This document shows, piece by piece, positions 60,889 through 63,065 of a DNA stretch of 64,000 bases; position 1 is the stretch's first letter, and each line of letters begins with the position of its first letter. This DNA comes from Chroococcus sp. CMT-3BRIN-NPC107. Its GTDB lineage: Bacteria > Cyanobacteriota > Cyanobacteriia > Cyanobacteriales > Chroococcidiopsidaceae. The translations under genes were made by a program, and so were the position numbers. The notes under the pieces are model-generated. The model saw only the letters and a list, made by a program, of their open reading frames with translations, was not told the DNA's origin and ran no database searches. Location: contig JAHHGY010000010.1 in NCBI GenBank assembly GCA_019359635.1, positions 1-64,000 of the forward strand, given 5' to 3'.

Positions 60889-61152
60889 ATGAAAAGTATG
60901 AATATTTCACTACCGGATTCAATGCGGACTTATGTAGAGAATCAAGTAGCTAGTGGTGGTTACAGTACCGCCAGCGAGTATTTTCGGCAATTAGTACGTG
61001 CTGACCAAAAACGCCAAGCTAAGGAACGTCTAGAAGCATTATTATTAGAAGGGTTGGAATCTGGCACTGCTACCCCAATGACTGACAAAGATTGGCGTGA
61101 TATTAGTCAAGCTGTGCGCTCGGCAGTTGCCAAACGCACTGGATCGATTTAG
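60889..61152 (+). CDS. parD: ParD-type antitoxin
   Basis: An 87-residue protein. The N-terminal ribbon-helix-helix is NISLPDSMRTYVENQVASGGYSTASEYFRQLVRADQKRQ, the C-terminal part is helical and binds the toxin (LEALLLEGLESGTATPMTDKDWRDISQAV). It would repress its own operon and neutralise ParE. The cognate parE starts right after but contains a stop codon, so parD seems an orphan antitoxin. The operon is flanked by aspC and the arsenic genes, which suggests a later insertion. Confidence 0.93.
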   Translation: MKSMNISLPDSMRTYVENQVASGGYSTASEYFRQLVRADQKRQAKERLEALLLEGLESGTATPMTDKDWRDISQAVRSAVAKRTGSI

Positions 61153-61154
61153 TA

Positions 61155-61472
61155 GTGATGAGTGAGGTTAACAAAAAACCACAAGTTATCCGCGATTTGA
61201 TAGAACTTGCAACATACAAATTTGATGTGAGCGATCGCTTTCTTACCGCCGCAGAAGAAACATTTAAGCATTTAGCGAAGATGCCAGAGATAGGGAAAAT
61301 TTGCCAATTCGCTCATCCCAAGCTGGCTAATGTCCGACAGTAAGCTATCAAAGGATTCAAAAATTATCTTGTCTTCTACCGCTTAAAGGATTCAAAGGTT
61401 GAAATTATACGGGTGATTCATGGCGCACGAGATATCGCCGCCATCTTGGACGAGGACTTAGAAGATGATTAA
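61155..61472 (+). pseudogene. parE: ParE toxin, disrupted by an in-frame stop
   Basis: The frame starts at GTG 61155 or ATG 61158 and reads KKPQVIRDLIELATYKFDVSDRFLTAAEETFKHLAKMPEIG, a ParE-type N-terminus, then stops at TAA 61341-61343. The same frame continues with AIKGFKNYLVFYRLKDSKVEIIRVIHGARDIAAILDEDLEDD to a stop at 61470-61472, the ParE C-terminus. In homologues the stop position usually codes for Trp or another residue before (I/V)KGF. The single base-level lesion inactivates the gyrase-poisoning toxin unless the stop is read through. Confidence 0.88.
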
Positions 61473-61502
61473 TTATAAACTCAAACTTTTAAGTGTATTT
61501 GT

Positions 61503-61898
61503 TTAACTAAGCTTTGCTACTAACTTCTCCACTCGTTCTTTAACTTCATCGCGTACCCGGCGAAATGTCTCTATAGGTTGTCCTTCAGGATCGTCAAGTT
61601 GCCAATCAGCAAATACTTCTCTAAGTACCCATTCTTGGGGCAAATTTACGCCACAACCACAAAGAGAAATTACCGCGTTGTAGTCTTCGGCTTTAAAATC
61701 GCTTAATGGCTTAGATGTCTGATTGCTAATATCAATCCCAACTTCGGACATAATTTCTACAGTTTTGGGATCGGCATGGCTTGCTTCTAAGCCAGAACTT
61801 GCAACGGCTACTTTTCCTTTTCCCAAAGTACGAGCAAATCCTTCTGCCATTTGGGAACGGCGAGAATTTTTTTTGCAGACAAACATGATTTTTTTCAT
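61503..61898 (-). CDS. arsC: Arsenate reductase (glutaredoxin-linked, LMW-phosphatase fold)
   Basis: A 131-residue ArsC of the low-molecular-weight tyrosine phosphatase fold. The P-loop is CKKNSRRS, with Cys8 and Arg14 in the CX5R pattern. Two further Cys are at positions 80 and 82 (SLCGCGVN). Cys8/Cys80/Cys82 is the arrangement of the Synechocystis arsenate reductase, which uses glutathione and glutaredoxin. The enzyme reduces arsenate to arsenite. Its ATG overlaps the aquaporin stop (ATGA, 61895-61898), so the two are translationally coupled. Confidence 0.94.
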   Translation of the reverse strand: MKKIMFVCKKNSRRSQMAEGFARTLGKGKVAVASSGLEASHADPKTVEIMSEVGIDISNQTSKPLSDFKAEDYNAVISLCGCGVNLPQEWVLREVFADWQLDDPEGQPIETFRRVRDEVKERVEKLVAKLS

Positions 61899-62560
61899 AA
61901 TTTAGCAGTGGTTAGTTCTAAGGATTTATTTGTGGCTTCTTTTTGTGCGCCCATTATTGGTGCAAACCAATAAACCCATTGATGCTGCATATTTCCCCCT
62001 ACTAAAGCGGGTGCAAGACTCCGCACGGGGTTCATACTTGCGCCTGTAATCGCTCCCATACAAGCAGCTTCTAGCCCCACAGTTAAGCCAATAGCCAAGC
62101 CTGCAAACCCAGTGTGGGCGCGGCGGTCGAGTCCCGAACCTAAAATCACAAACATCAAAATAAAGGTTAAAACTGTTTCCAAAATCACAGCCTGCAACCA
62201 GTTATCATTTAGCGGCAAAGTTGCGCCTAATTGGGCGACATTTCCTAGACTGAGGAGTAATAAAGTTGAAGCGGCGATCGCACCTACACATTGCGCCAAT
62301 ATATAAGGCAGCACTCGCACTGTGGGAAATACCCCAATTGTCCAAAATGCTAGAGTTACCGAGGGGTTAAAGTGTGCGCCGCTTAGATGTCCCATCCCGT
62401 AAATTAAAGCTGCAACTACTGCCCCAAATACAAAGCTAATGCCTAAATGAGTCACTGCACCGTTACTGATGGAGTTTGTCATTACAGCGCCCGTACCTGC
62501 AAATACTAAGATAAATGTGCCTATTCCTTCGGCTAACGCTTCCCGCCAGCAACTCGTCAG
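61895..62560 (-). CDS. aqpS: Arsenite-type aquaporin (AqpS/AqpN-like), start codon uncertain
   Basis: A major intrinsic protein between arsR and arsC. The track starts at ATG 62482, but the sequence before it in the same frame (SLTSCWREALAEGIGTFILVFAGTGAV) is the conserved first helix, so the true start is upstream. No ATG, GTG or TTG is in frame; CTG 62560 is my best guess. The pore motifs are GAHFNPSVTLAF (NPS) and GASMNPVRSLAP (NPV) in place of NPA/NPA, the pattern of boron/arsenite-permeable plant NIP5;1-type channels. The C-terminal helix looks short (FAPIMGAQKEATNKSLEL). It would let arsenite leave by diffusion. Confidence 0.88.
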   Translation of the reverse strand: MTSCWREALAEGIGTFILVFAGTGAVMTNSISNGAVTHLGISFVFGAVVAALIYGMGHLSGAHFNPSVTLAFWTIGVFPTVRVLPYILAQCVGAIAASTLLLLSLGNVAQLGATLPLNDNWLQAVILETVLTFILMFVILGSGLDRRAHTGFAGLAIGLTVGLEAACMGAITGASMNPVRSLAPALVGGNMQHQWVYWFAPIMGAQKEATNKSLELTTAKL

Positions 62561-62672
62561 AGATTTAGAGAAAGTTAACTGAAAAGGAAGTTTTAGACCG
62601 TGCTTAAGCCTGGGCGGAACTCATTTCAAAAAAAATTGATACAAGATTATTATTGCAACTTTTTTTGATTTG

Positions 62673-62984
62673 TCAAGGACAACAACGGGCAGGTAGTAGT
62701 TGACTAAAGCGGCGGAACTCAGATAAATATTGTTCTAAAACAATAAATTGAACCAAATCGAGACGGTAATATATCCAGCGTCCTTCTTGGCGAGAGCAAA
62801 CCAAACCAGCATCCTTTAAGGTTTTGAGGTGAAATGAAAGTTTAGAGCCATTTACACCCAAAGCATCGATTAGTTCGCATACACAAAGTTCTTTCTGTTT
62901 AAGCACCTCTAAAATAGCTATCCGCAATGGATCGCTAAGGGCATGAAATCCTGAAATAATTGTTGAAGAAGTTTGTTGCATCAA
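62673..62984 (-). CDS. arsR: ArsR-family arsenite-responsive repressor
   Basis: A 103-residue ArsR/SmtB-type winged-helix protein. The metalloid site is KELCVCELIDALG with Cys34 and Cys36, the ELCV(C)DL pattern of As(III)-sensing repressors. The DNA-recognition helix is in SKLSFHLKTLKDAGLV, then SRQEGRWIYYRLD. The chain ends in LPARCCP, two extra Cys that might add to As(III) binding. It would repress the arsR-aqpS-arsC operon until arsenite binds. It is divergent from hisC. Confidence 0.94.
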   Translation of the reverse strand: MMQQTSSTIISGFHALSDPLRIAILEVLKQKELCVCELIDALGVNGSKLSFHLKTLKDAGLVCSRQEGRWIYYRLDLVQFIVLEQYLSEFRRFSQLLPARCCP

Positions 62985-63065
62985 TTTTTATTGAAATGAC
63001 CTTTATTTTATTTTGCCTCAAGAGCGATAATAAATAGACCTTTTGCCCAATAAATTTATTTAATT

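Follow-up and report, generated by a model that had tools for sequence, protein, structure and literature searches.

The ars operon of Sinorhizobium meliloti, given as arsR-aqpS-arsC-arsH in the accounts of Yang et al. 2005 contained in PMC6205960 and PMC4435449, carries an MIP, AqpS, instead of ArsB or Acr3, and a role in arsenite exit has been proposed for this channel (PMC6205960). A survey of MIPs encoded in ars operons found no other transporter in the operon in 18 of 18 cases (PMC4435449). In the cyanobacterium Synechocystis, the arsBHC operon, from which arsR is unlinked, encodes an exporter that is an Acr3 (PMC4284471, PMC4010505). In plants, NIP5;1 combines the pore motifs NPS and NPV with an A/I/G/R filter (PMC5539139). 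In the literature that we consulted, no aquaporin was described as part of a cyanobacterial ars operon.

The locus examined here lies in a 64 kb stretch of DNA (hereafter, the window) from a cyanobacterial draft genome of 3.44 Mb in 100 contigs, with an estimated completeness of 88%, whose nearest relatives are G002, a genome of the same genus, and Aliterella atlantica CENA595. A first-pass annotation had described it as a compact arsR-aquaporin-arsC operon, and Pfam and NCBIfam matches bore out an arsR, an MIP frame and an arsC on the minus strand (Table 1). The Cys8, Cys80 and Cys82 residues reported for ArsC are all present, as is the ATGA overlap between the MIP frame and arsC, and the NPS and NPV motifs of the aquaporin had been read correctly. 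The three genes therefore stand as placed, but the damage to the aquaporin had been missed, and the compact form appears to be secondary, with arsH lost by deletion. We consider it likely that the locus descends, through recent decay, from an Aliterella-type arsR-aqp-arsH-arsC operon. The listed start of arsR is a TTG with an ATG directly after it. ArsC, which is related to LMW-PTPases and contains a C-X5-R motif, scored well above the cut-off of the glutathione/glutaredoxin-type model TIGR02689 (E 4.9e-69; 230 bits against a cut-off of 157.6) and has the features of a Synechocystis-type ArsC.

Table 1. Features of the ars locus, in window positions, with the differences from G002 where these were compared
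Feature	Position	Strand	Remarks
Operator-like inverted repeat over arsR start	62978-62998	-	TCAA-N6-TTGA; conserved in G002
arsR (ArsR/SmtB repressor)	62673-62984	-	ELCVCEL motif; HTH_5 E 1.8e-15
aqp promoter region	62645-62677	-	TTGACA/TAATAA kept; first operator eroded, ATCAAAAAAAGTTGC vs ATCAACTTTTATTGA in G002
Second operator-like repeat before aqp	62623-62640	-	still TCAA-N6-TTGA
MIP reading frame	61895-62620	-	PF00230
Lost aqp start codon	62609-62611	-	AGG vs ATG in G002: CCCAGGCTTAAGCACGG vs CCCATGCTTAAGCACGG
Aquaporin-homologous part of frame	61944-62608	-	matches relatives up to ...WVYWFAPIMGAQ in TM6; NPS, NPV; ar/R filter F/A/A/R
arsH remnant, in-frame C-terminal tail	61895-61943	-	KEATNKSLELTTAKL; DNA alignment; G002 ArsH end SERKEATKALELTAKL
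arsC, Synechocystis-type arsenate reductase	61503-61898	-	TIGR02689; Cys8/Cys80/Cys82 intact

The operon is intact in both G002 and A. atlantica, where it reads arsR-aqp-arsH-arsC. As in the window, its neighbours are hisC on one side and aspC, ggt and aroG on the opposite side. The aquaporins of these relatives are orthologous and syntenic to that of the window (83-89% identical) but differ from it in having an ATG start, a complete TM6, the motifs NPA/NPV and an accompanying arsH. Alignment of the DNA with G002 showed that approximately 640 bp are missing from the window, between ...GGCGCACA in aqp and ...CAAAGAAGC near the 3' end of arsH, and that this deletion, which appears to have occurred in the window lineage, took almost the whole of arsH together with the latter half of the aquaporin's TM6. 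Aquaporin homology ends after WVYWFAPIMGAQ, the frame then reads KEATNKSLELTTAKL, and the last 15 residues of the fused frame are the C-terminus of ArsH, which in G002 ends SERKEATKALELTAKL; the two parts are joined in frame. Since the deletion fused aqp to the ArsH tail, the ATGA that the frame shares with arsC was originally the junction of arsH and arsC. The mean hydropathy of the residues following GAQ in TM6 is -1.0 in the window versus +2.1 in G002.

The start codon of the aquaporin has also been lost in the window lineage, where the ATG found in G002 (in the context CCCATGCTTAAGCAC) has become AGG. The first ATG, GTG or TTG of the frame is an ATG that occurs only at 62482, inside TM1, and a CTG at 62560, which would give a complete TM1, offers a possible weak start. 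With the start lost and TM6 truncated, the locus holds no intact gene for a six-helix MIP, and the channel is probably not made, or does not reach the normal six-helix fold; judged from these lesions, it is probably dead or nearly so in this genome. AlphaFold2 models built from shallow alignments were of no use for TM6, as the mean pLDDT was 51 for the window protein and 44 for the A. atlantica control.

The genes flanking the operon align over their full length with those of the relatives and are undamaged, so the lesions cluster in the operon. This bears on the reading that the operon is really intact and looks damaged only because two strains were joined, or the region was collapsed, in the draft, which we regard as very unlikely. 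An assembly of 100 contigs and 88% estimated completeness leaves room for such an error, and a deletion within an otherwise conserved operon is the typical pattern of a chimera, but the ATG-to-AGG change and an eroded operator both lie outside the deletion, the neighbouring genes are sound, and neither a second arsH nor a stray piece of one was found elsewhere in the 88% complete assembly of the window genome. Beside the operon, a ParE-like toxin frame (61155-61480, plus strand) follows a ParD antitoxin (60889-61152) and contains an in-frame TAA (KLANVRQ*AIKGFKNYLVFYRL...) that probably inactivates the toxin; the ParD/ParE pair is missing from the corresponding place in G002. In a metagenome-assembled genome of Scytonematopsis contorta, the orthologous aquaporin is split into two frames with approximately 22 residues missing (locus L015, 7956-8601), which is perhaps a second, independent decay or an error of that assembly.

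Upstream of aqp, both G002 and A. atlantica carry a pair of TCAA-N6-TTGA repeats, with a further one at arsR. Of these, the arsR repeat and one of the pair survive in the window, where the other is eroded. Over its 64 kb the window has six such repeats, where 1.4 would be expected, and two of the six lie at the ars locus. Their position and conservation suggest that these repeats may bind ArsR.

A test for an excess of substitutions in the aquaporin, as a sign of decay, gave a negative result. The aquaporin core has a dN/dS of 0.12 against G002, with 0.10 for ArsC and 0.04-0.12 for the flanking genes, and its two private changes at conserved sites are within the range of other orthologs, so the case for decay rests on the discrete lesions. 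The low dN/dS implies selection on the aquaporin that has only recently ended or that continues, and the damage thus appears to be recent and not the result of long drift. Unique amino-acid changes in ArsR number 11 in the window versus 2 in G002 (binomial p 0.02, for one of seven genes), and those in ArsC number 3 versus 9.

Against decay can be set the low dN/dS of the aquaporin core, the CTG start option, the in-frame fusion, the preserved arsC overlap and the 100-contig draft. A working minimal arsR-aqp-arsC operon, in which a shortened aquaporin made from a non-standard start still passes arsenite without ArsH, would accommodate the constrained core and the kept overlap, together with the promoter and the one operator that remain. 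It would also have parallels in loci of Nostoc, Desmonostoc and FACHB-63 (L007, L008, L014 and L016), where an intact aquaporin and arsC occur with no arsH nearby, and which indicate that an operon may lose arsH by itself without harm. We nevertheless hold this reading to be unlikely, as the conserved start codon is gone, a charged ArsH tail replaces half of TM6, and no intact ortholog of the aquaporin ends with a tail of this type. It is highly improbable that the fused gene is expressed from a non-AUG start as a retuned channel, with a half-length TM6, an ArsH-derived tail and an NPS pore, that serves another small solute or a slow exit of arsenite.

Pore positions follow the numbering of GlpF from E. 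coli, obtained by alignment. The ar/R filter is F/A/A/R in the window and in all full-length cyanobacterial orthologs. The first motif is NPS only in the window and NPA in all 15 of the other cyanobacterial orthologs that cover it; the second is NPV in the group of Aliterella, YX2bin18 and Scytonematopsis and NPA elsewhere. From NPS/NPV the first-pass annotation had proposed that the channel might conduct boric acid as well as arsenite, making the operon a mixed metalloid system. Both motifs are indeed present as in plant NIP5;1 (PMC5539139), and the filter is without the His of AqpZ, but NPS is confined to the damaged copy, whose orthologs have NPA, and an F/A/A/R filter is unlike the A/I/G/R with which NPS/NPV is combined in NIP5;1. 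The argument for boric acid fails on these two grounds, leaving a channel of this kind barely credible, and on the alignment the NPS is peculiar to this damaged gene and gives no sign of kinship to boric acid channels.

A grouping of the channel with water-selective AqpZ, against which the arsenite reading had been staked, was found in neither the tree nor the filter: AqpZ formed a separate clade (100/100), its filter is F/H/T/R versus F/A/A/R, and the match of the window protein to PRK05420 was below the cut-off. Nor is the channel an ortholog of S. meliloti AqpS, to which it is 31% identical and whose filter is T/A/S/V; in the tree AqpS fell outside, on a very long branch. The Aliterella trio was well placed; the depth of the tree lacked resolution, and long branches met. 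As to a place among bacterial NIPs (AqpN) and plant NIPs, the best sequence match among solved structures was rice NIP2;1 (39%), and AqpM was closer at 49% identity, within a deep tree that does not resolve these relations.

The ancestral cyanobacterial operon has the same gene content as that of S. meliloti, including an MIP instead of ArsB or Acr3. The MIP is a different one, the S. meliloti ArsC is annotated as plain glutaredoxin type, and in the window arsH is deleted and the channel damaged. With Synechocystis arsBHC it shares ArsH, the ArsC type and the order of arsenite-exit gene, arsH and arsC; in Aliterella the aquaporin takes the place of acr3, at a point where an arsenite pump serves in most cyanobacteria. 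Members of the family (G006, G010 and G013) have arsR-pstS-acr3-arsH-arsC, and Oscillatoria 7112 has arsR-pstS-aqp-DSP-arsH-arsC. In operons that are otherwise syntenic, the aquaporin thus stands where acr3 would be, which supports an AqpS-like arsenite exit in the intact relatives. The proposal that the channel replaces the pump in the manner of AqpS fits these relatives but not the present copy, with its AGG for ATG, truncated TM6 and deleted arsH. In the ancestor, As(III) would release the operon from ArsR, ArsC would reduce arsenate to arsenite with glutathione/glutaredoxin, and As(OH)3 would leave down its gradient through the channel, which would replace the Acr3 pump of the syntenic operons. 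In Calothrix NIES-4105, one region of a plasmid (L064), with MFS and GAPDH genes close by, holds both acr3-arsC and this aquaporin, which shows that channel and pump are not strictly exclusive.

In the window genome, ArsR and ArsC appear to remain intact, and the locus retains the make-up, on predicted operators and in an incomplete genome, of an ArsR-controlled MIP and ArsC operon without ArsB or Acr3. No match to ArsB was found in the genome at its estimated 88% completeness. The single SBF match, to a permease frame in contig C39, was weak and below the cut-off, and was rejected as an Acr3 because the sequence looks like another permease or carrier family. The reported lack of both pumps holds for the assembly and is provisional because that assembly is incomplete. 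The genome has one other MIP, an AqpZ with an F/H/T/R filter, and no other ars-type aquaporin elsewhere in the assembly. Without a channel or pump, arsenite would leak, use another channel or be metabolised; it probably leaks out or enters an arsenosugar route, and the arsenosugar ArsM and ArsS genes, which are present in contig C12, may provide an arsenite sink. Almost every genome of the family has arsenosugar-ArsM-like matches, and a special gain of arsM as a specific compensation was rejected on this account.

Once the relatives were aligned, both the "minimal" operon and the "boron-type" pore motif proved to be changes that only this damaged copy shows, and it is the intact relatives that are the useful part. 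At least two aquaporin lineages, with F/A/A/R and S/V/G/R filters, occur in cyanobacterial ars operons; the F/A/A/R lineage is in the Acr3 slot, and both are present within one genus, which offers naturally paired systems for asking under what conditions an arsenite pump can give way to a passive channel. In G003-G005, of the same genus (L052-L056), a different MIP with an S/V/G/R filter lies beside arsC, accompanied in most copies by arsH, and on these sequences ars operons of the genus have taken up MIPs of a second lineage.

Aquaporins with F/A/A/R filters and ars neighbours were also found in ars clusters of Deinococcus and Rubrobacter, and others in apparent arsinothricin clusters of Priestia and Alicyclobacillus. 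Where measured, they are 45-53% identical to the G002 ortholog, and their loci differ in another ArsC annotation or in radical SAM neighbours and in having NPA/NPA. On the Priestia and Alicyclobacillus plasmids (L058, L066 and L059), the aquaporin gene lies between genes for a radical SAM protein with an RCCLKC tail and a GTP-binding protein, and in two of the three an arsM or arsN1 annotated as arsinothricin-related is nearby. No open paper dealing with the aquaporins of arsinothricin clusters came up in our literature search; it is possible that the channel is the arsenite uptake step for arsinothricin synthesis in these bacteria.
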